Shown piece after piece: positions 31,730 to 53,936 of a DNA stretch of 64,000 nucleotides (positions are counted from its first letter, which is position 1; each line of letters begins with the position of its first letter). A program made the position numbers and the translations under genes. This stretch comes from a virus. The stretch covers positions 1 to 64,000 of IMG/VR virus record IMGVR_UViG_3300045538_000426, one strand, 5' to 3'. The notes below the pieces were generated by a model, which saw only the letters and a program-made list of their open reading frames with translations, was not told the origin of the DNA and searched no databases.

Positions 31730-32490
31730 AGGATAATTTATACAATAACGGTGATGTGTTTTTTGACATAGAGAAGTCTAAATTACAAATCCAACTTATA
31801 CAGTGCACGACACCCGTGCAAAATAAGCTATTTCGTGATACCATAGATAAACATCATTCTTATGTAAAATATAAGGATTCTCCCACTCGGAATATACGGT
31901 ATCTAGTTTACGAGGGAGTGAGCGGGAACCACATAGGAGCAGTCGGCCTCAGCAGTGCTACAATTGCTGTCGCTTGTAGAGATGCTTTCATGGGGTGGGA
32001 TAATGAAACAAAGATGCTCCATCTCAACAAACTGGCAAACAACAGTCGGTTTTGTTTGATACGTGATAACATAACGGTGAGAAATGCTGCCAGTATGTGT
32101 CTAAAACAACTCCGTATAGAAGGCGCTCTTGATTGGAAGAAGAGATACGGCGACGAGTTAATTTTATTAGAGACATTTGTTCAACCTGACCGTGACGAGG
32201 AATTGGATGGTCAGAAAAGCAGAAATGGGTGTTGTTATAGAAGCGACAATTGGATTCCGGTGGGAATGACCTCCGGTGCAAGCATACAAAAATCCCCACT
32301 CCTTCTATGGGCTAAGGAAAAAGGAGAACGAGGTCGACTTGCGAGAGAGGATAAGGCCGAGTGTCTGAGAATCTACGGAAAGTATTTGGGAGAACACAAT
32401 GGAAGTGGATATAAAGTCACTGAGAGTAAGAAAAAAATTGTGTTTGTTAAACCATTGGTTCATAATTGGAAAACCATAATATCAAAATGA
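31726..32490 (+). CDS. DUF4338 / DruA-like protein (second copy)
   Basis: 254 residues from a GTG that overlaps the upstream stop (GTGA). It follows the DUF4338 consensus closely: DKHHSYVKYKD, RNIRYLVYEG, GNHIGAVGLSSATIAV, CRDAFMGWDNETKMLHL, LANNSRFCLI, ALDWKKRYGDELILLETFV, then CCYRSDNWIPVGMTSG. DUF4338 is the family of DruA, the only universal part of Druantia anti-phage systems, where its action is unknown. Druantia helicase DruE or other parts are absent, so a phage-borne copy is more likely a decoy, an inhibitor, or a DNA-modifying enzyme in its own right. It sits at the start of the glycan island. Confidence 0.7.
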   Translation: MKDNLYNNGDVFFDIEKSKLQIQLIQCTTPVQNKLFRDTIDKHHSYVKYKDSPTRNIRYLVYEGVSGNHIGAVGLSSATIAVACRDAFMGWDNETKMLHLNKLANNSRFCLIRDNITVRNAASMCLKQLRIEGALDWKKRYGDELILLETFVQPDRDEELDGQKSRNGCCYRSDNWIPVGMTSGASIQKSPLLLWAKEKGERGRLAREDKAECLRIYGKYLGEHNGSGYKVTESKKKIVFVKPLVHNWKTIISK

Positions 32491-33815
32491 ATGAATTTTT
32501 CGAATACGCTTCGCCTGAAATAGAATGTAAGTATAGAATACTTGTTTGGCCAAACATAACCTATTCGGAGGATTTGGAAAAGGATTCATATGTCGTCGTG
32601 TTATCTAATGTGATACGGGAGGTAAATAAAATCGTTCCGGGTGTATTCTGGACGATTGTTACACCGAAGGAAGTCAACAGTCTCAAGTTTCAAAATACTG
32701 AACAGATTATTTACGACTTTCCAACGTATCCAAATTCCATGAGAATCCACTTCGATTTCCGAAAGGTAATGAATCTCATAGATTGGAAAAGAAACGACTA
32801 TGATATAGTTTACAGTCATTTACCGGAACATACTCTCCAGTTATCGAACCTGTTCAATAACCAAACCAATATACGTCCGAAGTTCATAGGATATTGTCAT
32901 TGGTATGAAGTCGAGGAAAATACCGCTTATCTCAAGAATGTATTTATGAACAATATCGCCGGAACACTTGAGATGCAAGAGTGTGGGGTGAATTCTAAAT
33001 GGCTTAAATCTTTGGTATTAGAGAGGGCTGCCAAGTATTACTCAAAAAATGTCTTGGAAGATTTGGAGAAGATAATACAACCTCATTATCTTGGGACAGA
33101 TGCTGACGTGGGAGATAACACAAACATCGTCCAGAAGTCTATTTTATTTAATCACAGACCCAATCAGTATACAGGTTGGAACGAATTCCTATCGACTATG
33201 GACAACCTGTATAAAGTAAGACAGGATTTCACTGTATATGTCACGTTGGCTGAAGAGGAACGACCATATATAAAGAAGGTGTGTCTCGATAGGAAGGGAT
33301 ATTCTAACTTTCTGAAACAGATGCAAGTCGGCGTCGGATTCTTTAAAAGTTACAGTGCGTGGTCAATTTCCGCCACGGACGGTATGAGCCGCGGGCTCCC
33401 GTATTTGTTGCCAAAGAAGTTGTGCTATCCCGAAATGGTCGGTGACGATTATCCTCTATTTTTTAGCAATACAGACCAGTTTTTAATAAAGTTGGAGAAA
33501 GCACTTGATAACCCGGATTTCAGAAAAGACAATTCCGAGAGTTTATTGAAAGTGGTAAATAATTTGACGTGGGAAAATACCGTTCCAAAGTGGTTCAACA
33601 AGTGGAATGTATTTGAATTCGACAAATTAACAAAAGACACCCCGCGGTATAACGATATATTGGAATTGATAAAAACTAAGGGTACTGTTTCCAAGGAAAC
33701 TCTCATGGACTTTTTGGGGTGGGGAGTCAATATTTCCATGTCACCTTATAGAAATAGACTTAGGGATGAAACGGGAATTACATTCTTGAAAAATACCTAC
33801 CAATATAAGAATTGA
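32487..33815 (+). CDS. GT-B type glycosyltransferase
   Basis: 442 residues from an ATG that overlaps the DUF4338 stop (ATGA). Two Rossmann-like halves are evident: an N-terminal half with RILVWPNITYSED, DYDIVYSHLPEH and FIGYCHWYEV, and a C-terminal half with SILFNHRPNQYTGWNEF, FTVYVTLAEEE, VGVGFFKSYSAWSISATDGMSRGLP (quoted in pieces), PYLLPKKLCYPEM. The D-G-M-S-R-G-x-P motif takes the place of the usual E-x-x-x-x-G-x-P nucleotide-sugar site. A 90-residue C-terminal extension (KGTVSKETLMDFLGW) looks helical and DNA-binding-like. First glycosyltransferase of the island; donor and acceptor unknown. Confidence 0.55.
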   Translation: MNEFFEYASPEIECKYRILVWPNITYSEDLEKDSYVVVLSNVIREVNKIVPGVFWTIVTPKEVNSLKFQNTEQIIYDFPTYPNSMRIHFDFRKVMNLIDWKRNDYDIVYSHLPEHTLQLSNLFNNQTNIRPKFIGYCHWYEVEENTAYLKNVFMNNIAGTLEMQECGVNSKWLKSLVLERAAKYYSKNVLEDLEKIIQPHYLGTDADVGDNTNIVQKSILFNHRPNQYTGWNEFLSTMDNLYKVRQDFTVYVTLAEEERPYIKKVCLDRKGYSNFLKQMQVGVGFFKSYSAWSISATDGMSRGLPYLLPKKLCYPEMVGDDYPLFFSNTDQFLIKLEKALDNPDFRKDNSESLLKVVNNLTWENTVPKWFNKWNVFEFDKLTKDTPRYNDILELIKTKGTVSKETLMDFLGWGVNISMSPYRNRLRDETGITFLKNTYQYKN

Positions 33816-33865
33816 GTTCTAATGTTTTCTAATTTTTTCTAATATCGTTCTCATATGTATGGGAA

Positions 33866-34229: not shown

Positions 34230-34772
34230 ATGGAAAAGAAAAAGATATTGTTGGCAAGTGATGATCTTAGGATGTTCAGTGGAGTTGCCTGTCAGTCAAG
34301 GGAACTTGTCATAAATACACTACATCATTACGACTGGGTTCAGATCGCGGGCTCAATTAAACATCCGGAGGCAGGAAAGGTGGTTGATATGTGTCAAGCC
34401 GCCAGAGAACAATCGGGCGTGAAAGATGCTTATCTAAAGTTGTATCCGGCAGATGGTTACGGTAACGAAGATATGCTGCTTTCTATCATGGATATTGAGA
34501 AGCCGGATGCAATTATGCATTTTACCGACCCTCGTTTTTGGGGATGGTTGTATCAAATCGAAAGAAAGATCCGACAAACCATTCCGCTTACGTATCTCAA
34601 TATTTGGGATGATATTCCATATCCAATGTGGAATCGTCCGTTTTATGAGAGCTGTGATGCTCTTTTTAGTATCAGCAAACAGACGATGAACATTAACAAG
34701 TGGGTTCTCGGTCCGGAAAATTGCACGAGTGTCGGTGGAGATTATGACAGCGACGGTAATGTTATCATATGA
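34230..34772 (+). CDS. N-terminal half of a split GT-B glycosyltransferase
   Basis: 180 residues. It begins KKILLASDDLRMFSGVACQSREL and has the acceptor-side Rossmann domain of phage glycosyltransferases: HYDWVQIAGSIKHPE, DGYGNEDMLLSIMDIEKPDAIMHFTDPRFWGW (landmarks quoted in parts), LTYLNIWDDIPYPMWN and CDALFSISKQT. It stops at GGDYDSDGNVII. In homologues I recall, this point is followed directly by the donor-binding half, which here is a separate gene starting 70 bases later in another frame. The end overlaps a 20-codon mini-ORF (ATGA). Both halves look intact, so they probably assemble as two chains. Confidence 0.6.
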   Translation: MEKKKILLASDDLRMFSGVACQSRELVINTLHHYDWVQIAGSIKHPEAGKVVDMCQAAREQSGVKDAYLKLYPADGYGNEDMLLSIMDIEKPDAIMHFTDPRFWGWLYQIERKIRQTIPLTYLNIWDDIPYPMWNRPFYESCDALFSISKQTMNINKWVLGPENCTSVGGDYDSDGNVII

Positions 34773-34831: not shown

Positions 34832-34841
34832 ATAAAAACAT

Positions 34842-35831
34842 ATGCCAGTAAAAGGAAAACACCTACTTCACTACGTCCCACATGGGATCAACTCCACTGT
34901 ATTTAAACCAGTCGACGCTACGTCGCCCGAACTCGTCAAGTTTCGTAAGAACTTATTTAAAAACGGAGAATATGATTTCGTATTCTTCTATAACAGCCGC
35001 AACATCAATCGCAAGCGGACAGCGAACATCATGTTGGCGTTTCGAACATTCTGTGATAATTTGCCCAAAGAGAAGTCATCCAAGTGCATTCTCGTTCTTC
35101 ACACTGAGAAAATCCTCGACGCTGGAACGGATTTGAACGCAGTTGGAGAAGCGTTTCTACAGGGACTTAACTATCTTGTATTGGAGAGTAGATATTCTCC
35201 GGAAGAAATGAATCTTCTTTACAATCTATCCGATGTTACGGTCAATGTGAGTTCAAACGAGGGATTTGGATTGAGCGTCGCTGAATCAATCGTATCAGGA
35301 ACCCCCGTCATTGTAAATGTTACTGGTGGATTACAAGACCAGATAGGCCAGTTGGATGACGATGGAAAGCCGGTGGAATTTTCACGAGATTTTGGTTCAA
35401 ACAATGTTAAAAAATATACGAAACATGGTATCTGGGCTAAGCCGGTTTGGCCCGTGACTCGCGTCATTCAAGGTTCACCGCCGACTCCTTATATATTCGA
35501 CGATTTGTGTAAGTGGGAAGATGTAGCCGAGGCTATGATGTATTGGTATGTTCTCGGTAAAGAAAAGTGTGAATCGTGTGGAGCCGAGGGTCGCAGGTGG
35601 GCTCTAAATGAGGGCGGGTTGAATCATAAGAATCTCGCCGAACAGTTCATAAAGGCTATGGATTTCACCTTGGAGAACTTCACTCCACGGTCTAGGTTCA
35701 GCCTCCACGGAGACACTGAATATGTTGGGAATAGGATGCCGCAAAACAGTATGGGGTTTGATATTCCAAAGATAGATGTGGAAAAAATGAGGAGTGAAAT
35801 AGTTCACGTCAATCAAACAAACTCTCTATAA
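34842..35831 (+). CDS. C-terminal half of a split GT-B glycosyltransferase
   Basis: 329 residues. It opens with KGKHLLHYVPHGINSTVFKP, the segment that normally follows the inter-domain hinge in one-chain homologues, then FVFFYNSRNINRKRTANIMLAF and a GT4-type nucleotide-sugar site, VNVSSNEGFGLSVAESIVSGTPVIV (E-G-F-G-L with the downstream E). A Cys pair (CESCGAEG) near 245 could bind metal. The C-terminal 60 residues are extended. It supplies the donor domain of the transferase whose acceptor domain is encoded just upstream. Its own ATG and good conservation argue for function as a separate chain. Confidence 0.65.
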   Translation: MPVKGKHLLHYVPHGINSTVFKPVDATSPELVKFRKNLFKNGEYDFVFFYNSRNINRKRTANIMLAFRTFCDNLPKEKSSKCILVLHTEKILDAGTDLNAVGEAFLQGLNYLVLESRYSPEEMNLLYNLSDVTVNVSSNEGFGLSVAESIVSGTPVIVNVTGGLQDQIGQLDDDGKPVEFSRDFGSNNVKKYTKHGIWAKPVWPVTRVIQGSPPTPYIFDDLCKWEDVAEAMMYWYVLGKEKCESCGAEGRRWALNEGGLNHKNLAEQFIKAMDFTLENFTPRSRFSLHGDTEYVGNRMPQNSMGFDIPKIDVEKMRSEIVHVNQTNSL

Positions 35832-35870: not shown

Positions 35871-36560
35871 ATGGAAATACAACTTCTAAAGAACGAATAT
35901 TTTGACGATGATTCTAAGTTGCCTAAACATGCCACGGAACGGGCAACCGGTTTCGACATAAAAGCAATCTCCGATCCGGAAATCATAGGAACGAAAGCCG
36001 CAACTTCTGACACTCTCTGGGATTCCATAGATTACATTCAGTATCGGACTGGAATTTTCATAGCAACTCAAGACGAACGGAAATACGATGCTATGTCTTG
36101 TGTTTCAATAAAATCATACGACGTATTGATATGCCCAAGGTCATCTGTGTCAAAATACAATTTGACCTTGGCAAACTCGGTGGGATTGATAGACGCTGAT
36201 TATAGGGGAGAAATTCTTCTTCGATTCAAGTATAACTGGCAGCCAATGGATTTTATTTACGTTCCGACAGCGGACGGCAACGTCACTGCTATAAGTTCGA
36301 GAATCGTTGGAAAACCTAATTTAGACAAGATTTACAAAAAAGGAGATGCCATAGGACAATTGAAAATCACGGTTAACGAACCGGTGAAGTTCAAATTGGT
36401 AGATCAGTTGGATGTCACCGAGCGGAATGATGGTGGATTTGGAAGTACCGATGTCCGTGTAACCTTACCGTCGGTCATAACCGACCTATATCAAAAAGAC
36501 AACATTTCACCGACGCCCAAGAAATACATAGATTTGATTAAAGAAAGAGATTCTAAATAA
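35871..36560 (+). CDS. dut: dUTPase
   Basis: 229 residues, longer than the usual 140-160. All five dUTPase motifs are present: ATGFDIKA (1), PRSSVSK (2), NSVGLIDADYRGEI (3, with the catalytic Asp and base-binding Tyr), AIGQL (4) and the C-terminal arm ERNDGGFGST (5). Insertions of about 30-40 residues lie between motifs 1 and 2 and between 3 and 4, and a 35-residue tail follows motif 5. The enzyme turns dUTP to dUMP and PPi, keeping uracil out of DNA and feeding dTMP synthesis. It is a nucleotide gene inside the glycan island. The gap upstream has only a weak TTGATT-like -35. Confidence 0.88.
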   Translation: MEIQLLKNEYFDDDSKLPKHATERATGFDIKAISDPEIIGTKAATSDTLWDSIDYIQYRTGIFIATQDERKYDAMSCVSIKSYDVLICPRSSVSKYNLTLANSVGLIDADYRGEILLRFKYNWQPMDFIYVPTADGNVTAISSRIVGKPNLDKIYKKGDAIGQLKITVNEPVKFKLVDQLDVTERNDGGFGSTDVRVTLPSVITDLYQKDNISPTPKKYIDLIKERDSK

Positions 36561-36561
36561 T

Positions 36562-37887
36562 ATGACAAAACCGGTTTGCATTCTACAGTCCCCATTATTC
36601 ACTCGCTCAGGCTACGGAGAGTGGTCAATGGCCATGGCAAAGTCGTTACTTCGTTATGATAAATTTGACTTGAAAATAGTCCCTACTCGATGGGGCGGCT
36701 GTCCGTCAAAGTCTTCCTTTAAAGATATCACCGACCCGATGGAACAGGAACTGTTCAACAGAATCCTCCGTCAACCGCTGGGAGCTCAACCGGATGTATT
36801 CATTCAGATGACCATTCCAAGTGAGTTTCAATCCCCCGCTAAGTTTAACATCGGAATGACTGCGGGAATAGAGACGACAGTTCCTCCCGGAGATTGGATC
36901 GAGGGAATGAATCGAATGTCCGTAAACTTCGTTCTGTCTGATTTCGTTAAGAAAGTTTTTTCACAAGCATCGTTTGTCAAACAACATCCAGATGGAAAGA
37001 AAGAAGATTTGAAACTGAGAAAGCCAATCGAGGTCGTTCGGTGGGGAGCTGATACTTCGATATACAAAAGAACGTCTGAAAAAAATGAAGCGGTTGATTT
37101 AGCATTGTCGGGAGTGAAAGAAAACTTCTGTTTCTTGTTCGTAGGTCAGTGGACTCATAGTAATGGGTTATATAGTGACCGTAAGGATATTGGAATGTTA
37201 ATCAAGACGTTCTGTGAGGCTTTCGCTGGCGTCAAAGATAAGCCAGCGCTGATTCTGAAGACAAGTGGTGTTTCTTTTTCAAATGTCGATAAAGCAGACT
37301 GTTTGAATCGGATTAATAAAATCAAACAGTCGGTTGGTGGGGATTTGCCTAACGTATATCTTCTCCACGGTGAGTTGAGTGATGTAGAGATGAATGCTCT
37401 GTTCAATCACGAGAAGGTAAAAACTCACATTAGCTTCACTCACGGTGAGGGATATGGACATCCACTATTGTTGGCCGGTCTAAGCGGTAAACCGGTAATG
37501 GCGTCGGATTGGAGTGGACATTTGGATTTCCTAAATTCTGAGAATTCATATCCAATCAAAGGTGAATTGAAACAAGTGAGGGGAGATTCCGCCAATCAGT
37601 GGATTATGAAGGAATCCGCTTGGTTTAACGTTAATTATGAAAAGGCAAAGGAGAAATTACGTGGAATGGTGACAAACTACGATTCTCTGACCGAGAAGTC
37701 TATTCTCGGATGTGTAGGACTGGCCGAGAAGTTTAGCACGTCAATGATAGACAAACAGTTTCATGGTATGCTTGATAAGTATGTCCCAGAGTTTCCGACC
37801 GAGCAGAAGATAGTTTTGCCTAAGTTGAAAAAATTGGAATTGCCGTCACTGAAGAAGGTAGAGCTTCCGACACTAAAGAAGGTATAA
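36562..37887 (+). CDS. GT-B type glycosyltransferase with C-terminal LPxLKK repeats
   Basis: 441 residues. The N-terminus CILQSPLFTRSGYGEWSMAMAKSLL is the acceptor-side start (Gly-rich loop). NFVLSDFVKKVF and VVRWGADTSIYK mark the hinge, CFLFVGQWTHSNGLYSDRKDI the donor side, and HISFTHGEGYGHPLLLAGLSGKPV (split landmarks) the E-G-x-G-x-P nucleotide-sugar site. The last 28 residues are three units of the type L-P-x-L-K-K-x-E, a simple amphipathic repeat that may be a docking or membrane-surface helix. It starts one base after dut and ends with overlap of the next gene (ATAATG). Substrates unknown. Confidence 0.7.
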   Translation: MTKPVCILQSPLFTRSGYGEWSMAMAKSLLRYDKFDLKIVPTRWGGCPSKSSFKDITDPMEQELFNRILRQPLGAQPDVFIQMTIPSEFQSPAKFNIGMTAGIETTVPPGDWIEGMNRMSVNFVLSDFVKKVFSQASFVKQHPDGKKEDLKLRKPIEVVRWGADTSIYKRTSEKNEAVDLALSGVKENFCFLFVGQWTHSNGLYSDRKDIGMLIKTFCEAFAGVKDKPALILKTSGVSFSNVDKADCLNRINKIKQSVGGDLPNVYLLHGELSDVEMNALFNHEKVKTHISFTHGEGYGHPLLLAGLSGKPVMASDWSGHLDFLNSENSYPIKGELKQVRGDSANQWIMKESAWFNVNYEKAKEKLRGMVTNYDSLTEKSILGCVGLAEKFSTSMIDKQFHGMLDKYVPEFPTEQKIVLPKLKKLELPSLKKVELPTLKKV

Positions 37888-38573
37888 TGTCAACCGTTCC
37901 AAAAATAAGCTATCTCGTTACTTGTAAAAATGAAGGAAAGCAACTTTCCGAATTGGTCGAGTATCTTGCAGAATTTTCGTTGCCAGTCCACGACGAAATA
38001 GTTATCATAGACGACTATTCCACCGAAGTACAGACGTGTAAATATTTGACCGATTGGGATTGGTTCGAAAAGGGAAACATAAACATCCATAAACATGAGT
38101 TAAACAAAAACTACTCTGAACACAAGAATTATGGAAAATCAAAATGTTCCGGTGATTGGATATTTCAAATAGACGCGGATGAGATGCCGGCTGAGACTCT
38201 CATGACTAACCTACATGAGATATTATCTTCCAATGAGAACGTAGAATTGTTTTGGGTTCCCCGTATAAATGTATTTAATGGTGTTACAGCGGAACATGCA
38301 GCGCAGTGGGGATGGGATATAAATAACCCTAACAAGTGGGTGAATTGGAACAGCGGAGATTACCAGGGAAGAATTTTCAAGAATCTCCCACATCTTCGAT
38401 GGGAACGCCCTCTTCACGAACGGATAGAGGGATATAAAGTTTCTTCCAAATTCCCAAAGGAAGAGGAATTCGCGTTAATTCATACCAAAACGATAGAAAA
38501 ACAAATCCAAACTAACATTAGATACAACACGGATTTCAGTGAGGCCATGAATAGAGGACATAAGATACCGTGA
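37887..38573 (+). CDS. Family 2-like glycosyltransferase (GT-A fold)
   Basis: 228 residues. KISYLVTCKNEGKQLSELV is the usual start of GT2 enzymes, IVIIDDYSTE the first acidic strand, and WIFQIDADEMP the D-x-D metal site, followed by LFWVPRIN and the acceptor-loop pattern WNSGDYQGRIF with RWERPLHERIEG (quoted in parts), common in bacterial lipopolysaccharide core transferases of this kind. No membrane helix, so the acceptor is soluble or peripherally reached. It overlaps the next gene by GTGA. Likely one step in building the island's glycan. Confidence 0.75.
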   Translation: MSTVPKISYLVTCKNEGKQLSELVEYLAEFSLPVHDEIVIIDDYSTEVQTCKYLTDWDWFEKGNINIHKHELNKNYSEHKNYGKSKCSGDWIFQIDADEMPAETLMTNLHEILSSNENVELFWVPRINVFNGVTAEHAAQWGWDINNPNKWVNWNSGDYQGRIFKNLPHLRWERPLHERIEGYKVSSKFPKEEEFALIHTKTIEKQIQTNIRYNTDFSEAMNRGHKIP

Positions 38574-39040
38574 ATGAGAAGCGAATTAAATACCTCCGTT
38601 ACATTCGGAATCACGTAGTATCCGTTCAAAAGAGTTTAAATTCATTTGCTTCTGAACTAATAGAACGTGGACGAATCCACGACGCATCGAAGTTTTCTGA
38701 CCCTGAATTATCGGGGTTCGCAGAAAATGTCGATAATGCATCTGACATCGTCTATGGAAGCGATGAACACAGTAAGAAGATGAATGAGATGCGGGTCATC
38801 ATCGACATTCATCATACAAATAATCGTCATCACCCCGAGCACTGGGGAGACGGTGTGAACGAAATGACTTTGTTGGATATACTTGAGATGCTTGCTGATT
38901 GGAAAACCGCATCAGCACAGTATAAAGACGGTGATTTGCTCAAATCCGTTGAGATAAATTGTAAGAAATATAAAGTAGACGACCAACTTAAACGGATTAT
39001 ACTTAACACGATAAGCGACCACATGAACGATTCCAAGTGA
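38570..39040 (+). CDS. DUF5662-like, HD-type helical protein
   Basis: 156 residues from a GTG overlapping the upstream stop. The pattern HDASKFSDPE, then IDIHHTNNRHHPEHWGD, MTLLDILEMLADW and NCKKY matches DUF5662 as I remember it, with the HD-phosphohydrolase-like use of His and Asp (H-D, then H-H and H-x-x-x-W). HD-type proteins hydrolyse nucleotides or phosphate esters, but activity of DUF5662 is not established. It lies between glycosyltransferase genes, joined to both by stop-start overlaps, so it may act on a nucleotide-sugar or nucleotide product. Confidence 0.65.
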   Translation: MNEKRIKYLRYIRNHVVSVQKSLNSFASELIERGRIHDASKFSDPELSGFAENVDNASDIVYGSDEHSKKMNEMRVIIDIHHTNNRHHPEHWGDGVNEMTLLDILEMLADWKTASAQYKDGDLLKSVEINCKKYKVDDQLKRIILNTISDHMNDSK

Positions 39041-39783
39041 AAACTTTGATATATACAACAGCGGTAGATTCTGATACATCGAAGTTCAAAAATTCTTTGT
39101 ATAGCCAGTATTGTATATTGAGCTGGGAGAAGTGGTGTAATAAAAATGGAATCGACTTTCTTGTTATACGAGACAATGACCCTAGATATAAGTTTCCTGT
39201 ATGGAACAAGGATAGGATTTTCGAACTCGTTGGAAATACATATGAAAAGATAGGATATGTCGACTCCGATACAATTGTTAGGTGGGATTGTCCAAATCCA
39301 TTCGATTTGTATACTGACGAATTCTGTGGAGTGAAGGAGATAAGTTCATTGAGATGGATATATAACTCAATTTCAACTTACGGTCATTTCTATCCAAACG
39401 TAACACTTTCACTGGATGAATATATAAACAGCGGCGTGGTTTTCTTTACCAGAGATCATAAATATATTTATGATGAATTGATTGAATTGTATGTGAAGAA
39501 TCAATCTGAATTGGATACTATAAAAGGGGTCGGTAAGGTACAAACTCTCCTAAATCTTTCGCTTAAAAAGAACCGTGTCAAACAGAAGTATTTCGATGAT
39601 AGGTGGAACCTATTTTCCATTCATAAGAAAAACATGTTCGTTCATAACTGGCAATTAAATGAGGATAAGACTCCTTTCTTTGTAAAATACGCCTACGTCT
39701 GGCATTTCACTGGGTTTCCAATTGAAAGTCGGACTGATGTCATGAAGAATGTATGGGAGTCGGTAAAGCATCTATATGAATAA
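39037..39783 (+). CDS. GT-A fold glycosyltransferase (GT8-like), first of a tandem pair
   Basis: 248 residues from a GTG overlapping the upstream stop. SWEKWCNKNGIDFLVIRDND, VWNKDRIFELV and KIGYVDSDTIVRWDCPNPFD give a D-x-D (DSD) site in the order of GT8-like enzymes. DEYINSGVVFFTRDH is the conserved N-S-G-V strand, and the C-terminal VHNWQLNED and YVWHFTGFP resemble the H-x-x-G metal-binding end. It shares layout with the next gene (DADTIVHPNCPD, YYNSGFQV, VMHFNGLP), so the two arose by duplication and probably act in series or on different acceptors. Confidence 0.65.
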   Translation: MKTLIYTTAVDSDTSKFKNSLYSQYCILSWEKWCNKNGIDFLVIRDNDPRYKFPVWNKDRIFELVGNTYEKIGYVDSDTIVRWDCPNPFDLYTDEFCGVKEISSLRWIYNSISTYGHFYPNVTLSLDEYINSGVVFFTRDHKYIYDELIELYVKNQSELDTIKGVGKVQTLLNLSLKKNRVKQKYFDDRWNLFSIHKKNMFVHNWQLNEDKTPFFVKYAYVWHFTGFPIESRTDVMKNVWESVKHLYE

Positions 39784-46534: not shown

Positions 46535-46544
46535 TGAGATTACT

Positions 46545-47408
46545 ATGAAATATACATTCAAAGACAAACTTTTTTTGGTCACTGGCGGCAGCGGATTTCT
46601 AGGAAAACCACTGGTTGCTAGGTTATTGGCCGACGGTGCAATGGTTCGTGTGTTGGCTAGAGACGAGGGCAAGCTCATCGAACTAAAACAATTATATCCA
46701 TCAGTTGAGATATTGACGGGCGACGTTTCGGATGAATTTGAAGTACGACAAGCCATGTTGGGCGTAAACGGTGTGTTTCACCTCGCTGCGTCAAAGCACA
46801 TAGGAATTGCTGAGAAGCAAGTAAGAGAGTGTATAAAATCAAATACGATAGGTTCGATGAATATACTGGCTGAATCTCTTAGAAACCCGGTGGAATTCGT
46901 CATCGGTATAAGCACGGATAAGACAGCGAAGGTATCGGGTGTTTACGGTGCGTCTAAGTTTTTGATGGAGAGATTGTTCAAACAATATGAACAATTGAAT
47001 ACTAAATGTGATTATCGAATAGTGAGATATGGAAATGTGATATACTCCACTGGATCGGTGTTGTGTAAGTGGAGGGAGGCAATTCTAAAGAACCAACAAA
47101 TCACGGTGACGGATTTAGACGCAACTCGTTTCTTTTGGACAGTAGACCAGGCAATAAACCTAATTTATGAATGTCTGGCTAGTGCTAAAGATTCTACTCC
47201 TTTTGTTCCTGAGATGAAAGGTATGAGTCTTAGAAACCTATTGATTGCTATGGAAGAGAAGTATTCTACTACGCCCGCTGTCAGGCCAGACTGGAACATA
47301 ATCGGATTACAGCCGGGAGAAAACCTACATGAGAAAATTGTATCGGATGGACCGGATTCGAGTCAGGTTCAACAATACGAGATCGATGAAATTAAAAACT
47401 TGATATGA
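46545..47408 (+). CDS. SDR sugar-nucleotide 4,6-dehydratase-like enzyme (PseB/CapD type)
   Basis: 287 residues. NAD-binding start LFLVTGGSGFLGKPLV, D-V-S (ILTGDVSDE), VFHLAASKHIGIAE, the catalytic region FVIGISTDKTAKVSGVYGASKFLMERL (T-D-K, then Y-x3-K) and VRYGNVIYSTGSV. The S-T-D-K-x-x-x-x-x-x-x-Y-G-x-S-K and R-Y-G-N-V pattern is that of PseB/WbjB/CapD enzymes, which make 4-keto-6-deoxy (and C5-epimerised) UDP-GlcNAc derivatives. That would be the first committed step for a deoxy-amino sugar such as pseudaminic- or fucosamine-type sugars. The next genes (SDR, aminotransferase) could supply later steps. Confidence 0.75.
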   Translation: MKYTFKDKLFLVTGGSGFLGKPLVARLLADGAMVRVLARDEGKLIELKQLYPSVEILTGDVSDEFEVRQAMLGVNGVFHLAASKHIGIAEKQVRECIKSNTIGSMNILAESLRNPVEFVIGISTDKTAKVSGVYGASKFLMERLFKQYEQLNTKCDYRIVRYGNVIYSTGSVLCKWREAILKNQQITVTDLDATRFFWTVDQAINLIYECLASAKDSTPFVPEMKGMSLRNLLIAMEEKYSTTPAVRPDWNIIGLQPGENLHEKIVSDGPDSSQVQQYEIDEIKNLI

Positions 47409-48271
47409 AATTCCTTATATTGGGCGGAAATAGATTCGTTGGGAAGAAATTAGCAACCAGATTGGTTTCCAAGGGACATCAAGTAACCGTCTTGAATCGT
47501 TCGGGAACCGGCCCAACCGGATGTGAGATAATAAAACACGACCGCAATCTTGGGTTTTCCGACCCAAAATTCGATGATTGGAATCGTCCTTTGGGGGAAT
47601 CTCCGAGGTTCGATGATGTAATAGATTTCTGTCTTTTTAAACCAGAACAAGCGGTAAGTCTGATTACAAAGTTTTCTCCACAACAGAAATACACATTTAT
47701 CAGCAGCGCCGCTGCTTATGCTGATTCTCATTCTCAATTGTATACCGAGTATATGCCTATCGGCGGTAGGAGCGCTTTTGGAGAGTATGGAAAAGAAAAA
47801 TCTCTATGTGAGTATGTTATTGAAAAGAATAATGTCAATTATGTGGTATTCCGTCCGTCTTATATAGTCGGCAACGATTGTCCAAGACCAAGATTGAGGT
47901 ATTACATTAACAGCATTTTGTCGGAGGGAAAAGCATTTGTGCCGGGTGATGGAAAAGCGTTATTTAGTTTAGTTTGGGTAGATGACGTAGTCGACACGAT
48001 ATACAACTACGTGACAAACGTCGACCGAGTGTATTCTGGACGAAGAGATAGATTTAATATCACCGGTTATGATGTATACAGTCACATCGGGTTGGTGACT
48101 GAGATTTCGGAGTTCTTAAAAAAGAAAGTGGATATTGTGTATGAGTCAAAAGACACACCGTTTCTAAACGAGAATTTTATTATCTCCCCCGCTAAACTCG
48201 GAGAGAGGTTCGTGCCAATAAAATATAGACTAATGGAATTTTGCGATTACAATGGGATTAGATATGAATAA
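47405..48271 (+). CDS. NAD-dependent epimerase/reductase (extended SDR)
   Basis: 288 residues. LILGGNRFVGKKLATRLVSKGHQVTVLNR is the dinucleotide-binding start (G-x-x-x-F-V-G). YTFISSAAAYAD and FGEYGKEKSLCEYVI hold the S and the Y-x3-K. VVFRPSYIVG and FSLVWVDDVVDTIYNYV are typical of sugar-nucleotide epimerases and reductases. The N-R-x-G start (VLNRSGTGP) resembles NAD(P)-dependent enzymes of the isoflavone-reductase or chloroplast-type SDR group, so the exact reaction is open. Joined by overlap to the dehydratase upstream and the aminotransferase downstream. Confidence 0.7.
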   Translation: MKFLILGGNRFVGKKLATRLVSKGHQVTVLNRSGTGPTGCEIIKHDRNLGFSDPKFDDWNRPLGESPRFDDVIDFCLFKPEQAVSLITKFSPQQKYTFISSAAAYADSHSQLYTEYMPIGGRSAFGEYGKEKSLCEYVIEKNNVNYVVFRPSYIVGNDCPRPRLRYYINSILSEGKAFVPGDGKALFSLVWVDDVVDTIYNYVTNVDRVYSGRRDRFNITGYDVYSHIGLVTEISEFLKKKVDIVYESKDTPFLNENFIISPAKLGERFVPIKYRLMEFCDYNGIRYE

Positions 48272-49409
48272 ACTATTAAGATCAAAACCGTATATTCCAG
48301 AAGCAGACATTCCCGCTATTGTAAAAAATCTCGAAGAAGTAGTCAGAAGCGGAATGTTCATACAGGGAAAATACGTCGGTCAATTGGAAAAATCATTTGC
48401 TGAATACTGTGGAACTAAGTTTGCTGTTGCTACCAACTCCGGTGCTACTGCGCTTGAGGTTGCTTTGAGAGCAACAGGAGTCGAAAATAAAAAGATAATC
48501 GTCCCAACCCAAACGTTTGTAGCCTCGGTCAGTGCCATAATACGGTCAAATAACATTCCGGTGATTGTTGACGTCGAGGAAGATACACAGAGCCTCAGTG
48601 CACGGATTATACGTGAAAACGTTGACAATGATGTATTCGCGGTAATGTGGGTTCATATGGCGGGCTTCATAAGTCCTGATTACTACAATATAAAGAAACT
48701 ATGTGACAGTCTGGGTATTCTTTTGATAGAAGATGCGTCGCATGCGGTAGGAGCATCAATCGACGGTATAAAAGCAGGTAACTTGGGATTTGCTGGTTGT
48801 TTTTCTCTGTTTGCTACGAAGATTATAACGAGTGGTGAGGGTGGGATTATAACCACAAATGATGCCGATTTTGCTGAGAGATGTAGGGTGATAAGAAATC
48901 ACGGATGTATCCGTAATCCAGCTCCTTATGAGGGAATTGATTTCGGAGTCAATTGCACGTATGCATCCTCGAATTATAGAATGCCGGAATTGTCGGCGGT
49001 AATCGGTGCGAGCCAGATGCCGAGAATAGACCTATTCGTGTTAAAGCGAAATGTCCTCGCCCTCGCCTATGATTTACACATCACAAATCCACGTATCACA
49101 AAACCATCCATACCGGATAACACAACTATGACTTGGTGGCAATACATCGTTTCTCTTCCGGAGGGAACTACATTGGAAGCCAGAACGGAATTATGCACGA
49201 CGTTGTTGAGGGATCATGGAATATCCACTGCGAATGCTTATTGGCCTCCGTGTCATGAACAACCGGCATTCAAGAAATACGTCGCTGCTGGTCAGAAATA
49301 TGAAGTAGCCGATAGTCTCCTTAAACGTCACCTTGCTCTTCCGTTATACGTTGAAATGGATTTGGAACAGGTGAGATTCGTTTCCGACGTAATCAATAAA
49401 ATTGTATGA
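48264..49409 (+). CDS. DegT/DnrJ/EryC1/StrS-type sugar aminotransferase
   Basis: 381 residues from the ATG at 48264, which overlaps the upstream stop region; 48252 is an alternative. Family features: FIQGKYVGQLEKSFAEYCG, ATNSGATALEVALRA, VPTQTFVASVSAIIRS, LLIEDASHAVGAS (PLP-binding Asp), FSLFATKIITSGEGG (PLP Lys), FGVNCTYASSNYRMPELSAVIG (R-M and A-x-G-x-x-Q-x type loop). These enzymes transfer an amino group from glutamate to a keto-sugar nucleotide at C3, C4 or C5. After the 4,6-dehydratase it would give a 4-amino-4,6-dideoxy sugar, as PseC does after PseB. Confidence 0.85.
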   Translation: MNKLLRSKPYIPEADIPAIVKNLEEVVRSGMFIQGKYVGQLEKSFAEYCGTKFAVATNSGATALEVALRATGVENKKIIVPTQTFVASVSAIIRSNNIPVIVDVEEDTQSLSARIIRENVDNDVFAVMWVHMAGFISPDYYNIKKLCDSLGILLIEDASHAVGASIDGIKAGNLGFAGCFSLFATKIITSGEGGIITTNDADFAERCRVIRNHGCIRNPAPYEGIDFGVNCTYASSNYRMPELSAVIGASQMPRIDLFVLKRNVLALAYDLHITNPRITKPSIPDNTTMTWWQYIVSLPEGTTLEARTELCTTLLRDHGISTANAYWPPCHEQPAFKKYVAAGQKYEVADSLLKRHLALPLYVEMDLEQVRFVSDVINKIV

Positions 49410-50101
49410 AGACTATAAGTATTCATCAACCTAACTATCTACCGTGGTTGGGCTTCTTCGATAAGGTAGCCAAGAGTGACACGTTCGTTGTCTTCGATAA
49501 CGTTCAATTCCCGCGTGGAAAACAACACTTCGGGCATAGAAATTTGATAAAATCACCCAATGGAGAAGGTAGGTGGTTAACGGTCCCTCTTATTGGAAAG
49601 AGTGATATGAAAAACTTCAATGAGATTGAAATCAATCACAATGGATGGAACCTAGATCACTTAAATCTAATCAAATCCTTTTACTCCAAATCGACGTATT
49701 TCAGCAAATATTATCCAGAGTTGGAGACTATTTTAAAGAAACCCCACGTCACTTTGTCCGATTTAAATGTGGAATTGATAAAGTTTCTACTGGCTTCATT
49801 GCATATTGACGTGGAAGTGGTTCTATGTTCTGAGGTATGTGGGACGGACGTGTCTGGTGCTGACAGAATCATGTTCCTATTAAAGAAATTGAATGCGACG
49901 CATTATATATCAGGAACAGGCCCAGGGTCAGTGAAATATATCAACGAACAGGAATTCAAGGATAATGGAATAGAATTAATATGGCAGAACTATTCACATC
50001 CTATGTATAAGCAGTTATACGGCGATTTTGTATCAAATTTATCTGTGATTGATTTGTTGTTCAATCACGGTCCATATTGCCGTGACATTTTAGAAAATTA
50101 A
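49406..50101 (+). CDS. WbqC-like protein
   Basis: 231 residues. The start ISIHQPNYLPWLGFFDKVAKSDTFVVFDNVQF, followed by WLTVPL, the pattern HYISGTG and IWQNYSHPMYKQLYG, and the end LFNHGP match the WbqC family (H-Q-P-x-Y-x-P-W-L-G-F-F at the start). WbqC proteins occur in O-antigen and amino-sugar clusters and are thought to act with sugar aminotransferases and acyl transfer, though the activity is not firmly known. It directly follows the aminotransferase with a four-base overlap. Confidence 0.82.
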   Translation: MKTISIHQPNYLPWLGFFDKVAKSDTFVVFDNVQFPRGKQHFGHRNLIKSPNGEGRWLTVPLIGKSDMKNFNEIEINHNGWNLDHLNLIKSFYSKSTYFSKYYPELETILKKPHVTLSDLNVELIKFLLASLHIDVEVVLCSEVCGTDVSGADRIMFLLKKLNATHYISGTGPGSVKYINEQEFKDNGIELIWQNYSHPMYKQLYGDFVSNLSVIDLLFNHGPYCRDILEN

Positions 50102-50102
50102 C

Positions 50103-50759
50103 ATGGCTAGAAAAATAATGGCAATAGGGGCACATCCTGATGATGTGGAATTCGGTTGTTCTGGTACTCTCGTTCGACATAAAGCTGACGGTGACTTCGT
50201 TTCATATGTGTGTATGACGGATACCGAATCCAAGGACGGTACGACTGGTGAACTTCTACGGACGTTGGAACAGAACCGAGAAGAGACATTGGCTGCCGCG
50301 TCGGTGATTGGTTGTGATTTTGTGGATTTTCTCCCGTTTAAAGATCTTCACGTTCCATTCTCATTTGACTCGGTGAGTATGCTTGAGAAGCTCATAAAAA
50401 AATATGACATAGATATGATTTATACTCACTGGGCCGGTGATGCAAATCAAGATCATATTTCTACATTTAGAACGACGATGGCCGCTGCTAGGTATGTTCC
50501 CGATGTGGTCTGTTATGAACAGATTCCCATAGCAAGGATGTCGGAAAATCAAATGGAAACGACGTATTACGTGAATATAACCGACCAATTTTCAACAAAG
50601 ATTTCGGCTTCCATGAAACACAAGAGTCAGATAGAGAAATACGAAAAACATGGTTTGGACGTTAGAGAGAATTTGGAAACGTTGGCTAAATTTAGAGGTA
50701 TACAAGCAAGATGTAAGTATGCAGAAGCATTTCACATCATTAAAATGGTGAAATCATAA
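50103..50759 (+). CDS. PIG-L/LmbE-type N-deacetylase
   Basis: 218 residues. The zinc motif AHPDD (9-13) is followed by VEFGCSGTL and the distal HWAGDANQDHIS, which supplies the H-x-x-D-H-type residues. FEN-like helices with QNREETLAAASVIG (E-x-x-x-A) are typical. The family removes acetyl groups from GlcNAc-containing molecules (PIG-L, MshB, LmbE, BshB). Here it may deacetylate the amino sugar made by the preceding genes. It is the second deacetylase in the island beside the NodB-like one. Confidence 0.82.
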   Translation: MARKIMAIGAHPDDVEFGCSGTLVRHKADGDFVSYVCMTDTESKDGTTGELLRTLEQNREETLAAASVIGCDFVDFLPFKDLHVPFSFDSVSMLEKLIKKYDIDMIYTHWAGDANQDHISTFRTTMAAARYVPDVVCYEQIPIARMSENQMETTYYVNITDQFSTKISASMKHKSQIEKYEKHGLDVRENLETLAKFRGIQARCKYAEAFHIIKMVKS

Positions 50760-50760
50760 T

Positions 50761-51840
50761 ATGAATATAGAATTCGACGTCACATTAAACTGCAATTTCA
50801 GTTGTTTGAATTGTAATCGACATAGCAATTTCAATTCGCTTGAAAATCCACACGACCACACCAAGTCAGCTGGCCTCAATTATTACGACAATACAAACGT
50901 ATCAATGAACGCGGTAGATAAGTTAATTTCCGACGTTAAGTTACATGGTGGTATAAAAAGAATCCATGTTATAGGTGGGGAACCGTTGACACATCCCGAG
51001 ATAGACAAGATAGTGGACAAGCTTCGTGATGAATTGTTGGGGTTGTATGTTCCCGATATTGTCATTATTTCAAATCTTCACCCGAAAATGATAAAAGCGG
51101 GAACATTGGATACCCCAAAACAAATTGTTCAAAACTTTCCATTTGATAGAATCGACACTATACAATGGGGATATACACCGTCGTTCTTGCCTGCTTTAAT
51201 GAAAGCTTTGGCTGATTTGTTGAAATCTACGGGGATGACAACCGATGTTTTATCTGATAAATTATCGGAGTTAGTCGTTCAAGAAGACCCAAATAAAAAG
51301 ACAACTGCACATGATATACTGTCTACTGTAAAGATGTTCAGGGGGATGCTAGTTTCTAACTTCACGATGTTAGCTGATAAATCAGACGTTCACAGATGTT
51401 CCCTTGTATCTCCATATGACTCTGGTCAAGAAATGATTCCACTGTGTAACATACCAAATAAATGTGGGACAAATTATTCATTCGATGGATACTGGCCGTG
51501 TTCGCAAGGTGCCGCGATAGCTAGGATGTTCAATCTCACTCAATATAATCGAAAAGACATACCGATGAAGTTTGAGGATTGGGGAGATGTTGATTCTAAA
51601 GGAAATGCTATTGTAAACTCGAAGTCAAATATGTGGGAATTGTGCAAACACTGTCAACTGTCTGCAAAAACCAAGATGTTAGAGAAAGACCATGGTAGAC
51701 CGATATCCATAAGTTATAGGAAGGCATTGGGTATAGAGGGAGATTCAAAGCCATCGTCTCCCCACGTTGTTCCAAGTCATAAGAAAAATCTAGCCACGTC
51801 GATATACTTAGAAAAGTGTGAAACTGAATGTAAATCCTGA
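50761..51840 (+). CDS. Radical SAM enzyme with SPASM-like C-terminus
   Basis: 359 residues. CNFSCLNC near residue 10 is the [4Fe-4S] motif C-x3-C-x2-C, followed by IHVIGGEPLTHPEI (G-G-E-P) and IVIISNL. The C-terminal part carries CNIPNKCG, YWPCSQGAA and WELCKHCQLS, which looks like auxiliary cluster binding (SPASM/twitch). Proteins of this type catalyse radical epimerisation, oxidation or C-C/C-S bond formation on sugars, nucleosides or peptides. The position after two deacetylase and aminotransferase genes suggests a sugar or nucleoside substrate. Unusual cargo for a phage. Confidence 0.72.
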   Translation: MNIEFDVTLNCNFSCLNCNRHSNFNSLENPHDHTKSAGLNYYDNTNVSMNAVDKLISDVKLHGGIKRIHVIGGEPLTHPEIDKIVDKLRDELLGLYVPDIVIISNLHPKMIKAGTLDTPKQIVQNFPFDRIDTIQWGYTPSFLPALMKALADLLKSTGMTTDVLSDKLSELVVQEDPNKKTTAHDILSTVKMFRGMLVSNFTMLADKSDVHRCSLVSPYDSGQEMIPLCNIPNKCGTNYSFDGYWPCSQGAAIARMFNLTQYNRKDIPMKFEDWGDVDSKGNAIVNSKSNMWELCKHCQLSAKTKMLEKDHGRPISISYRKALGIEGDSKPSSPHVVPSHKKNLATSIYLEKCETECKS

Positions 51841-52762
51841 GTTCGGAATAGAACTAGCCCTAGCAGTTCCTTACGCTTACTGGTTACACCTAAACGGTGA
51901 ACTTGAATCTGTAACGACGTCCCGTGGAATGCGTCCCTTCTATTACTTCTGCAATGACGTCCGGGAAGATTATCAGACGAGAAGCATTGATAACGTAGCC
52001 GCATTGCAGAATGTGCCGAATCAGTGGATACACCACAATGCTATGGCTATAACAGGAAAAGATTATAGTGACATGACCTCCGAAGAACAGTCATCGGTGA
52101 ATGGCGTCCTAGATTATTCCAAGTGGTCACCCGTTCCATTCCGAGAACATTACAAAAACGAGGAGTTTAAGTTTAAGAAACCGACTGTTTTTATAACCAA
52201 TAAGTTCAACATAGAACACGGCGAACCTCCGATGGGATATTTTGATATAGAGTGTTTATATGAGATGTTCAAATATCTCACTGAGAAGGGATATACCGTC
52301 GTTTATAAAAGAGCCACGAATCGTGAGAAGGAGTTTTCTTTAGATTCAAATGAGGAGATGTCTCTCAGAGACGGTTACTTAGATATACAAGCTGATGTAG
52401 ACGGAGTCGGTGTTATGACGGATTTCCAATTAACAAAACACTTTGACGATGTTATTTTGGTGGATGACTTGGTCAGTAAATCTAAGTTATCATATAACGA
52501 AACTCAACTTAGAATAATGGCAAACTGTGATAAATTCATAAGTGTTTGTGGTGGGAATTCAATTTTGTCTTCCATGTTTGGTGGAACTGTGATAAGTTAC
52601 ATCCACAAAGGTAAGGAATTGAGAAAAAATTACTTTGGTGAGAACAGTTATTTCCGAAAGTTATCCGGAGCAAATGTCATCCCCGTAATAGATCCGGACG
52701 TTATGAAAACCGGCATTCACAATTACTCAAGCCTTAAATCCGCTATACTAACTAATTTCTAA
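51818..52762 (+). CDS. Unknown protein of the glycan island, glycosyltransferase-like
   Basis: 314 residues from a GTG; overlaps the radical SAM gene by 23 bases. Features: FGIELALAVPYAYWLHLNGEL, PFYYFCNDVRED, the aromatic NQWIHHNAM segment, FITNKFNIEHGEPPMGYFDIE, and a C-terminal half with ANCDKFISVCGGNSILSSMFGGTVISY. The last pattern (I-S-V-x-G-G-x-x-x-L-x-x-x-F-G) recalls the donor-binding domain of GT-B or fucosyl/heptosyl-transferase-like folds that detect stored or shared acceptors. No D-x-D or clear family signature, so the call is tentative. Confidence 0.4.
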   Translation: MKLNVNPEFGIELALAVPYAYWLHLNGELESVTTSRGMRPFYYFCNDVREDYQTRSIDNVAALQNVPNQWIHHNAMAITGKDYSDMTSEEQSSVNGVLDYSKWSPVPFREHYKNEEFKFKKPTVFITNKFNIEHGEPPMGYFDIECLYEMFKYLTEKGYTVVYKRATNREKEFSLDSNEEMSLRDGYLDIQADVDGVGVMTDFQLTKHFDDVILVDDLVSKSKLSYNETQLRIMANCDKFISVCGGNSILSSMFGGTVISYIHKGKELRKNYFGENSYFRKLSGANVIPVIDPDVMKTGIHNYSSLKSAILTNF

Positions 52763-52763
52763 T

Positions 52764-53936
52764 ATGAATATAAGCTTCATTCAACCCTCCCGTGATAATC
52801 TGAAATACCTGAAGTGGTCATACGCTTCTATACGAAAGAATCTCGCCAATAAGGAACATGAGATATGCGTCGCCGACGACTTCAGCCACGATGGCACAGA
52901 GGAATGGTGCAAAGAAATGGTCAAGTCAGACCCGTATTTTAAGTTTATACGAAATAATGGACCTACTCGATTGGGTCACACGATATTGTATGACAGACTG
53001 ATTAATGACGTTGCAACCAATGATGTTGTTATGATTTGGCACGCTGACATGTATGCGTGTCCCGGGTTGGATACGCAAATAGAGAACCATATCAAACCAG
53101 GTGTGGTCGTTAGCCTAACGAGGATCGAACCTCCTCTCCATCCACCGGGTCCAGAAAAGATAACCGCTGCCTTCGGAGAGGAACCGGAAGATTTTGACGA
53201 AGAAAAATTTCTAAAATGGTTTAAATTAGCAGTAACATCCTATAAAGATAAGACCACCGAAGGTATATTTGCGCCTTGGGCTATATACAAGAAGGACTTC
53301 CAATCTATCGGTGGGCACGATTCACTCTTCGCCCCACAATCCAAGGAGGATAGTGACATATTCAATCGATTTCTATTAAATGGATACAAGTTCATCCAAA
53401 CCTGGGAAGGATGTGTATATCACATGACATGTCGGGGAAGCAGATTTAACCCTACTCTCACGGAGGTTGGAAAGGAAAGTCAAGAGTGGTTGAAGCAGAA
53501 TAACCGAAGTGCTAGGAATTTTATAAGAAAGTGGGGGCACTTCGTTAAACACGACTCTTATATGAAGCCCATCGTTCCGAAACTATACAAAGTAGGGTTT
53601 GTGATACGTAATATAAACGACCCGATGTTATCTGTGCTCGAACCTTGGTGTGGAACTTTATATTCCGATGTTAATTATGACAAATATATAGAATCGGAAC
53701 AGCCTAATACCAAATTTGACTTGCGCTCCAAGTTAAAGAAGTTATCGGAAGTCGGAGATGATGATGTAACTGTGGAGTTTGATGCTAGGGAATTTACGAA
53801 CAATCATTTCAATTTAATATCAAACTTGTCGGATGTTGTAACCGAGACTGGTGAGCCAGGCACATTTGAGTTCTCCATATTTAAAATAACTATCAATTCC
53901 ACAACTTCTCGCGAACTGAGTCTCATAAAGTTATGA
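52764..53936 (+). CDS. Family 2-like glycosyltransferase
   Basis: 390 residues. Residues 1-230 are a GT-A domain: ISFIQPSRDNLKYLKWSYASI, EICVADDFSHDGTEEW, IRNNGPTRLGHTI, VVMIWHADMYACPG (D-x-D-like site, H-A-D) and, after an insertion, IFAPWAIYKKDFQSIGGHD and EDSDIFNRFLLNGYKF. The C-terminal 130 residues are a separate domain with no recognised function. It would add one sugar to the growing glycan; it is the last transferase of the island and its stop overlaps a small membrane-protein gene by four bases. Confidence 0.7.
   Translation: MNISFIQPSRDNLKYLKWSYASIRKNLANKEHEICVADDFSHDGTEEWCKEMVKSDPYFKFIRNNGPTRLGHTILYDRLINDVATNDVVMIWHADMYACPGLDTQIENHIKPGVVVSLTRIEPPLHPPGPEKITAAFGEEPEDFDEEKFLKWFKLAVTSYKDKTTEGIFAPWAIYKKDFQSIGGHDSLFAPQSKEDSDIFNRFLLNGYKFIQTWEGCVYHMTCRGSRFNPTLTEVGKESQEWLKQNNRSARNFIRKWGHFVKHDSYMKPIVPKLYKVGFVIRNINDPMLSVLEPWCGTLYSDVNYDKYIESEQPNTKFDLRSKLKKLSEVGDDDVTVEFDAREFTNNHFNLISNLSDVVTETGEPGTFEFSIFKITINSTTSRELSLIKL

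Follow-up and report, generated by a model that had tools for sequence, protein, structure and literature searches.

T4-like cyanophages P-SSM2, S-SSM7 and S-SM2 carry LPS/capsule-type sugar clusters (Sullivan 2010, PMC3037559; Iyer 2021, PMC7824862), for which epimerases/dehydratases, cupins, sugar kinases and nucleotidyltransferases have been described (PMC7824862). The locus analysed here resembles these clusters in having a large phage-borne run of glycosyltransferases with nucleotide-sugar enzymes that varies between relatives. It differs from them in having a UDP-GlcNAc-type dehydratase and an aminotransferase-WbqC-PIG-L set, and no sugar kinase, nucleotidyltransferase or cupin isomerase occurs among its Pfam matches. 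Virion glycosylation has been reported for mycobacteriophages (Che8; Freeman 2023, cited in PMC12619734 and PMC11256854), with phage glycosyltransferases linked to glycans on capsid or tail proteins; unlike for the present island, no amino-sugar pathway is described there. Virus-encoded bacterial-type sugar synthesis is also shared with the Megavirinae giant viruses, where it has been proposed for capsid-surrounding fibrils (PMC10117803); those viruses differ in infecting eukaryotes. The isolated Vibrio phages V-YDF132 and vB_VpS_PG28 have a PIG-L gene with WbqC immediately after it and a glycosyltransferase nearby, but their stretch has a second WbqC-like paralogue and no annotated aminotransferase or dehydratase. 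Their WbqC is 25–34% identical to the island WbqC over part of its length.

The window, a 64-kb stretch of DNA, is the first part of a 123-kb virus record. Its source is a large aquatic tailed phage that probably infects Planctomycetes-like bacteria; a contractile tail sheath gene is present in a 174-kb relative, and a DUF1501 protein has matches of up to 55% in Planctomycetota in a sampling without Verrucomicrobiota. DNA matching found no close relative among sequenced phages, in which the aminotransferase, WbqC and dehydratase have matches only below 60% identity.

Gene content and conservation

The original prediction of a 21-kb sugar run was borne out as a same-strand series of about 23 genes at 32487–53936 (Table 1). 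Judged by comparative genomics, the island is real, far beyond chance, because every gene has an ortholog in the same order in two other phage contigs, G001 and G002 (84–100% and 50–87% amino-acid identity) and dN/dS against the nearest related contig is 0.00–0.16. The genes were said to be linked mostly by 4-base overlaps; exact 4-base overlaps occur at only seven of 22 junctions, and 18 of the 22 lie between −23 and +3. Two genes in the run, encoding a dUTPase and a DUF5662 protein, are not sugar genes.

Table 1. Predicted genes of the island and the adjoining nuclease gene (window positions)
Position	Strand	Product	Evidence
32487..33815	+	Conserved protein, putative GT	No Pfam/PHROGs match; ortholog in G001, G002; dN/dS 0.03
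34230..34772	+	Split GT4 glycosyltransferase, N-terminal half	Aligns to N-part of fused 481/496-aa GTs, G005 and G006
34842..35831	+	Split GT4 glycosyltransferase, C-terminal half	Pfam Glycos_transf_1 3.1e-9; fused in relatives
35871..36560	+	dUTPase, inside run	Pfam dUTPase 4.2e-10
36562..37887	+	Glycosyltransferase, GT-B type	phrog_2170 glycosyltransferase 1.7e-14
37887..38573	+	GT2 glycosyltransferase	Pfam Glycos_transf_2 1.1e-10
38570..39040	+	DUF5662 protein	Pfam 8.9e-33
39037..39783	+	GT8-like glycosyltransferase, paralogue of 39776 gene	26% identity, E 7e-19
39776..40531	+	GT8 glycosyltransferase	Pfam Glyco_transf_8 1.3e-8
40509..42314	+	Gfo/Idh/MocA oxidoreductase fused to FAD-dependent (DAO) oxidoreductase	Pfam 2.6e-14 and 4.9e-7; start set at Met preceding Rossmann GxGxxG motif
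42318..42887	+	SAM methyltransferase	Pfam Methyltransf_24 3.1e-6
42887..43900	+	Possible exostosin/GT47-like glycosyltransferase (weak)	Pfam Exostosin_GT47 0.0067, below cut-off
43897..44892	+	Conserved phage protein, retained widely among related islands	Orthologs in 7 phage loci; no Pfam match
44889..45566	+	DUF2334 polysaccharide-deacetylase-like protein	Pfam 3.4e-11
45563..46495	+	Possible GT4-like glycosyltransferase, BshA-like C-domain (weak)	Profile vs PDB: three BshA/GT4 chains, E 0.05–0.27
46545..47408	+	UDP-GlcNAc-type 4,6-dehydratase, short, soluble	Pfam Polysacc_synt_2 3.4e-58; PDB 2gn4 6.8e-40
47405..48271	+	Extended SDR, nucleotide-sugar reductase/epimerase type	Pfam Epimerase 3e-16
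48264..49409	+	DegT/DnrJ/EryC1/StrS sugar aminotransferase (PLP)	Pfam 4.7e-92; PseC profile 3.5e-72
49406..50101	+	WbqC family protein, proposed N-acylation of amino sugar	Pfam WbqC 2.8e-66; AF2 pLDDT 94
50103..50759	+	PIG-L (LmbE/BshB-type) zinc N-deacetylase	Pfam 5.6e-23
50761..51840	+	Radical SAM enzyme, optional member	Pfam 4.7e-8; CNFSCLNC; in few related loci
51818..52762	+	GT-B fold glycosyltransferase, heptosyltransferase (GT9)-like, cassette-linked	AF2 pLDDT 85; Foldseek WaaC 2h1h 5.6e-5
52764..53936	+	GT2 glycosyltransferase, last island gene	Pfam 2.6e-8; present in most related islands
54716..55645	−	PD-(D/E)XK nuclease adjoining island, also adjoining core module in relatives	Pfam 1.4e-20

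Pfam matches agree with the enzymes first proposed from the sequence: the dehydratase, second SDR, DegT aminotransferase and WbqC, the methyltransferase, the radical SAM enzyme (with its CxxxCxxC motif) and the oxidoreductase fusion, while the two deacetylases correspond to PIG-L and DUF2334 proteins. With multiple glycosyltransferases beside epimerase/dehydratase genes in a phage genome, the island is a sugar cluster of the cyanophage kind, and its reading as a phage-borne nucleotide-sugar and glycosyltransferase locus is well supported.

The inventory of at least nine glycosyltransferases holds in outline, but family-level support extends to only five or six. Pfam or PHROGs support the genes starting at 34842 (GT4), 36562 (phrog_2170), 37887 (GT2), 39776 (GT8) and 52764 (GT2); glycosyltransferase signals are weak at 42887 and 45563, and the 32487 and 43897 products have no family match in Pfam and PHROGs searches. 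The open reading frames listed separately at 34230 and 34842 belong to a single GT4 gene, fused in relatives, of which they encode the N- and C-domain, respectively. An intron or intein in this gene was considered and rejected, since the halves have separate starts and, in G001 and G002, small unrelated open reading frames between them. The split gene has no Rfam match.

The catalytic motifs are intact in all aligned phage loci. In the dehydratase, TGGSGFLG, STDK and YGxxK are kept, so that the family match is accompanied by the GxxGxxG, Asp-Lys and Tyr-xxx-Lys signatures. The SDR has GGNRF.G and Tyr-xxx-Lys in 10 of 10 aligned phage loci, and Lys190 of the aminotransferase, invariant in the aligned loci, corresponds to the PLP Schiff-base lysine and not to the His of dehydrases. 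PIG-L, which is nearest to BshB and diacetylchitobiose deacetylases, has invariant AHPDD and GD(A/S)NQDH (the distal His motif) in 10 phages. For WbqC, the literature searched yielded no functional study. The best fold matches of its AF2 model lean to PanC, NadD and TyrRS and are weak (E 0.06 or worse), and profile–profile comparison with PanC and NadD was negative (probability about 0.05); none of the fold matches is significant, and a HIGH-superfamily adenylating ligase is a weak lead at most.

Modular organization and relatives

By gene content, the island is modular, with a core and a downstream cassette. The core (PD-(D/E)XK nuclease, GT4, GT, GT2 and 4,6-dehydratase) is seen in roughly two dozen viral contigs, with about 24 for GT4-GT-GT2-dehydratase. 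Its dehydratase is the shared hub of the island and occurs in at least 67 viral loci, 22 of 67 with the nuclease. The cassette (SDR, DegT aminotransferase, WbqC, PIG-L, GT-B enzyme and GT2) has a fixed order in more than 12 viral contigs; the ten close phage WbqC loci (L118–L127) all have this order, as do the further dehydratase loci L201, L202 and L234. Phage sugar clusters are already known; this recurring cassette appears to be undescribed so far.

WbqC, PIG-L and DegT aminotransferase genes also occur together in bacteria of many phyla (PIG-L near 51 and the aminotransferase near 45 of 80 bacterial WbqC loci). The bacterial order is often WbqC-PIG-L-aminotransferase, whereas the phage order is aminotransferase-WbqC-PIG-L behind the dehydratase and SDR, and the phage proteins fall in separate clades. 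Phage WbqC, PIG-L and aminotransferase each form a single clade (SH-aLRT 99) in trees whose bacterial sequences were drawn solely from loci with WbqC; bacteria may therefore have dehydratases or aminotransferases that are closer.

Pathway assignment

The gene order had been likened to O-antigen and to pseudaminic- or fucosamine-type clusters. The pathway is not a pseudaminic or L-fucosamine one, because neither a NeuB/PseI-type synthase (PF03102) nor a UDP-GlcNAc 2-epimerase (Epimerase_2/FnlC-type, PF02350) was found in seven phage records, which may be fragments; the NeuB search had positive controls. Where the PseB cut-off is 408 bits the dehydratase reaches 164, and the aminotransferase reaches 243 where the PseC cut-off is 424; both are homologous to these enzymes and fall under the equivalog cut-offs. 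The FnlA score is 122 against 730. The phage is unlikely to make and export an O-antigen or capsule on its own: searches found neither a Wzx flippase (PF01943) nor an initiating phosphosugar transferase of PglC/WbaP type (PF02397) or WecA type (PF00953), and the only predicted transmembrane signal among the sugar genes is a single marginal window within WbqC.

Proposed mechanism and alternatives

We propose, with a probability of about 0.5, that the phage uses the island for glycosylation in the cytoplasm, with a virion protein as the likeliest putative acceptor. The dehydratase would convert host UDP-GlcNAc to a UDP-4-keto-6-deoxy-HexNAc, the SDR would reduce or epimerise this product or a related intermediate, and the aminotransferase would add an amino group to give a UDP-amino-deoxy sugar. 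PIG-L would take off an N-acetyl group and WbqC would re-acylate an amine, for which the acyl donor may be an amino acid. A short glycan with this amino sugar would next be assembled by five to ten soluble glycosyltransferases, which would build it and transfer it in the cytoplasm to protein, and the glycan on the virion may alter particle recognition or adsorption. Since genes for a flippase, a lipid-carrier transferase and a clear membrane protein are all missing from the island, sugar transfer is probably cytoplasmic; against this, the host could contribute flippases and ligases for the membrane steps that the island lacks. A virion protein is our best guess for the acceptor, with abundant surface proteins (capsid decoration, tail fibres) as the likeliest candidates.

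The island lies among replication genes and does not adjoin the tail genes, a position that counts against the proposal.

Remodelling of the host surface (LPS, capsule or S-layer glycan) through host lipid carriers and flippases, which would block superinfection or maintain cell integrity, is possible but doubtful. The closest published precedents, the P-SSM2 and S-SSM7 clusters, have been read in this way (PMC7824862, PMC3037559), and the grouping of bacterial WbqC, PIG-L and aminotransferase genes across phyla is consistent with it; the island, however, brings no initiating transferase, flippase or multi-pass membrane protein of its own. Addition of sugars to phage DNA against restriction, similar to T4-type glucosylation, is very improbable. 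Virus glycosyltransferases that act on DNA are known (cited in PMC12619734), and a Mom-family gene at 20858–21628 suggests that the phage DNA is probably modified. Against this reading, the only thymidylate-synthase homologue seen looks ordinary and no source of hydroxymethylated pyrimidine was seen. The homologue keeps Asn, which we take to be the mark of the ordinary dUMP enzyme, and therefore argues against glucosyl-hydroxymethyl-cytosine DNA. In addition, no DNA-modifying system is known to have as many as ten glycosyltransferase candidates plus amino-sugar synthesis. A soluble glycoconjugate or secondary metabolite (e.g., antibiotic-like or bacillithiol-like) in place of a surface glycan has little likelihood: a second cyanophage cluster has been interpreted as being of this kind (PMC7824862), PIG-L is related to BshB, the 45563 product weakly matches BshA, and methyltransferase, radical SAM and FAD enzymes are present, but the many glycosyltransferases, and the fact that no ligase or synthetase is recognisable from sequence, speak against it.

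Under the cytoplasmic virion-glycosylation reading, a more specific and speculative proposal, rather unlikely as a whole, is that PIG-L and WbqC deacetylate and reacylate a 4-amino-4,6-dideoxy-hexosamine, the acyl group being an uncommon one that may be an amino acid. A widespread lineage of large aquatic phages would then build this sugar into a phage-specific particle glycan, and the core with its exchangeable cassette may be a virion serotype-like locus.

Implications

Phage sugar clusters have been suggested as possible stuffer DNA (PMC3037559). Strong purifying selection and a pathway order kept over deep divergence favour a functional product here. At least 67 viral contigs have the dehydratase as the marker of a phage glycosylation core, and the cassette gives WbqC a defined pathway context together with a laboratory-accessible relative in isolated Vibrio phages.

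Novelty and gene content of the sugar island

Sugar clusters are already known in phages such as P-SSM2 and S-SSM7 (PMC7824862, PMC3037559), and the island is therefore of a known kind. No description of a dehydratase core with an SDR-aminotransferase-WbqC-PIG-L-glycosyltransferase (GT) cassette was found in the literature searched, and sequenced phages have only distant matches to the island. What appears to be new here, within known phage sugar clusters, is this combination of core and cassette. The gene list of the original prediction, which described a bacterial-type sugar island, holds in outline on the basis of family matches. Two of the listed ORFs, 34230-34772 and 34842-35831, each encode one half of a single GT4 enzyme. 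This enzyme is encoded by a single fused gene in the related phage contigs G005 and G006; in the relatives G001 and G002, small unrelated ORFs that vary among relatives lie between the halves. Gene starts were reset to 32487, 40509, 42887 and 48264 from motifs and orthologs. Two DUF5662-type genes are carried by this one phage, with one located inside the sugar run (see table).

Predicted chemistry

The dehydratase is nearest to UDP-GlcNAc 4,6-dehydratases (2gn4, 6.8e-40), and the DegT aminotransferase to perosamine/PseC-type sugar aminotransferases. The closest relatives of PIG-L are diacetylchitobiose and BshB deacetylases. Catalytic motifs are intact in the dehydratase, SDR, aminotransferase and PIG-L across the aligned phage loci. 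The gene at 51818 encodes a GT-B enzyme whose closest relatives are the heptosyltransferase WaaC and GT9. Among the best 80 bacterial WbqC loci, PIG-L occurs nearby in 51 and an aminotransferase in 45, frequently in the order WbqC-PIG-L-aminotransferase, and in isolated Vibrio phages PIG-L lies directly 5' of WbqC. Because WbqC and PIG-L are paired in both bacterial loci and Vibrio phages, they probably cooperate on an amino sugar. We hypothesize that PIG-L would deacetylate this sugar and that WbqC would then re-acylate it. Vibrio phage V-YDF132 (locus L183, 7327-11064) has PIG-L, WbqC and a second WbqC-like gene, annotated as hypothetical, near the terminase. Fold comparison of WbqC gave a hint toward adenylating ligases, which was not upheld by a sequence-profile test.

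Module conservation and selection

A dehydratase profile scan of viral contigs yielded 67 loci, and the order (PD-(D/E)XK)-GT4-GT-GT2-dehydratase is kept in about 24 of these 67, some of which end at a contig edge. A WbqC scan yielded 21 viral loci. The order dehydratase-SDR-aminotransferase-WbqC-PIG-L is intact in all ten of the closest loci, where it is followed by the GT-B gene (9/10) and the last GT2 (8/10); in the others, the locus ends too early to include them. The ordered cassette is missing from all 11 more distant viral WbqC loci. The radical SAM gene is an optional member among related loci. Three of the closest loci (L120-L122) share the same adjoining phage genes in reversed orientation. 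In each of the trees for WbqC, PIG-L and the aminotransferase, a single branch (SH-aLRT 99) sets the phage sequences apart, with bacterial sampling drawn from WbqC-bearing loci only, such that closer bacterial dehydratases or aminotransferases may exist.

All genes of the island are matched by collinear orthologs in G001 (84-100% identity) and in G002 (50-87%). Most also have orthologs in G005, where the gene order differs in part. The genes retained in G006 are the dehydratase, a pair of GT4-type genes and two GT2 genes, one of which is the last GT2 of the island. Comparison of the window with G001 gives dN/dS values of 0.00-0.16 for island genes with defined dS, which are similar to those of phage core genes (0.02-0.16). 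Between neighbouring island genes (39037-53936), dS varies from 0.06 to 1.8 in the same comparison; this swing suggests allele exchange or recombination among co-infecting relatives along the island.

Phage record, host and defence-related genes

The record G000 is 122,969 bases long, of which the window covers bases 1-64000. Replication genes in the window encode RecA, a 5'-3' exonuclease, a DnaB-like helicase, a gp32-like SSB and a class II ribonucleotide reductase, and this one phage genome has both PolA-like and PolB polymerases. G000 has a tape-measure-like gene, and a gene for a contractile tail sheath is present in its relative G002 (173,817 bases). Planctomycete-type PSCyt1/DUF1549/DUF1553 and DUF1501 genes occur in both records, as assigned by a domain scan of the G002 copies, to which the G000 copies are 82-89% identical. 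The DUF1501 protein has at most 55% identity to Planctomycetota proteins. We infer that the phage host is a PVC-group bacterium, and the gene pair could represent host-derived metabolic genes as well as a host marker.

The ribonucleotide reductase gene of G001 (L026, about 37146-36639 of the contig) is interrupted by ~0.5 kb, possibly an intron or intein, at a position close to residue 495 of the protein encoded in the window. The tRNA arrays (see table) include a CTA-anticodon (Pyl-type) tRNA called by ARAGORN in G002, a candidate suppressor. Upstream of the sugar island is an anti-defence neighbourhood of Mom-family, Apyc1-like and two DruA-family genes. G000 also has a NAD salvage pair, which possibly serves in counter-defence.

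Coordinates of features in G000, its relative G002 and individual loci (L-numbers)
Feature	Window	G000 beyond window	G002	Locus
PolA-like polymerase	7968-9338
Mom-family DNA modification gene	20858-21628
DruA-family proteins (n=2)	27526-28710, 31726-32490
Apyc1-like (anti-Pycsar) gene	29091-29957
Gap between GT4 halves	34772-34842		43452-44313
DUF5662-type gene inside sugar run	38570-39040
PolB polymerase	56683-59211
PSCyt1/DUF1549/DUF1553 gene adjoining DUF1501 gene		81010-85826	94681-99451	L008/L009
Second DUF5662-type gene (recognised via similarity in G002)		92464-92937
NUDIX/cytidylyltransferase-like gene adjoining nicotinamide phosphoribosyltransferase		120457-122942		L010
tRNA array, 20 genes				L010 1388-12538
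tRNA array, 24 genes				L018 4718-16545

Destination of the sugar

NeuB and Epimerase_2, which are markers for pseudaminic and L-fucosamine routes, and Wzx, Bac_transf and WecA-type transferases, which are associated with membrane steps of surface polysaccharides, are absent from all seven records searched, which may be fragments; controls were positive. No transmembrane helix is predicted in any sugar gene except for one marginal window in WbqC, and the thymidylate synthase looks ordinary from its sequence. Together, the missing transferases and flippase, the lack of clear transmembrane helices and the ordinary thymidylate synthase favour cytoplasmic transfer onto protein. The sugar would thus most likely be put onto protein in the cytoplasm, with a virion protein favoured as its target over the host surface or DNA.
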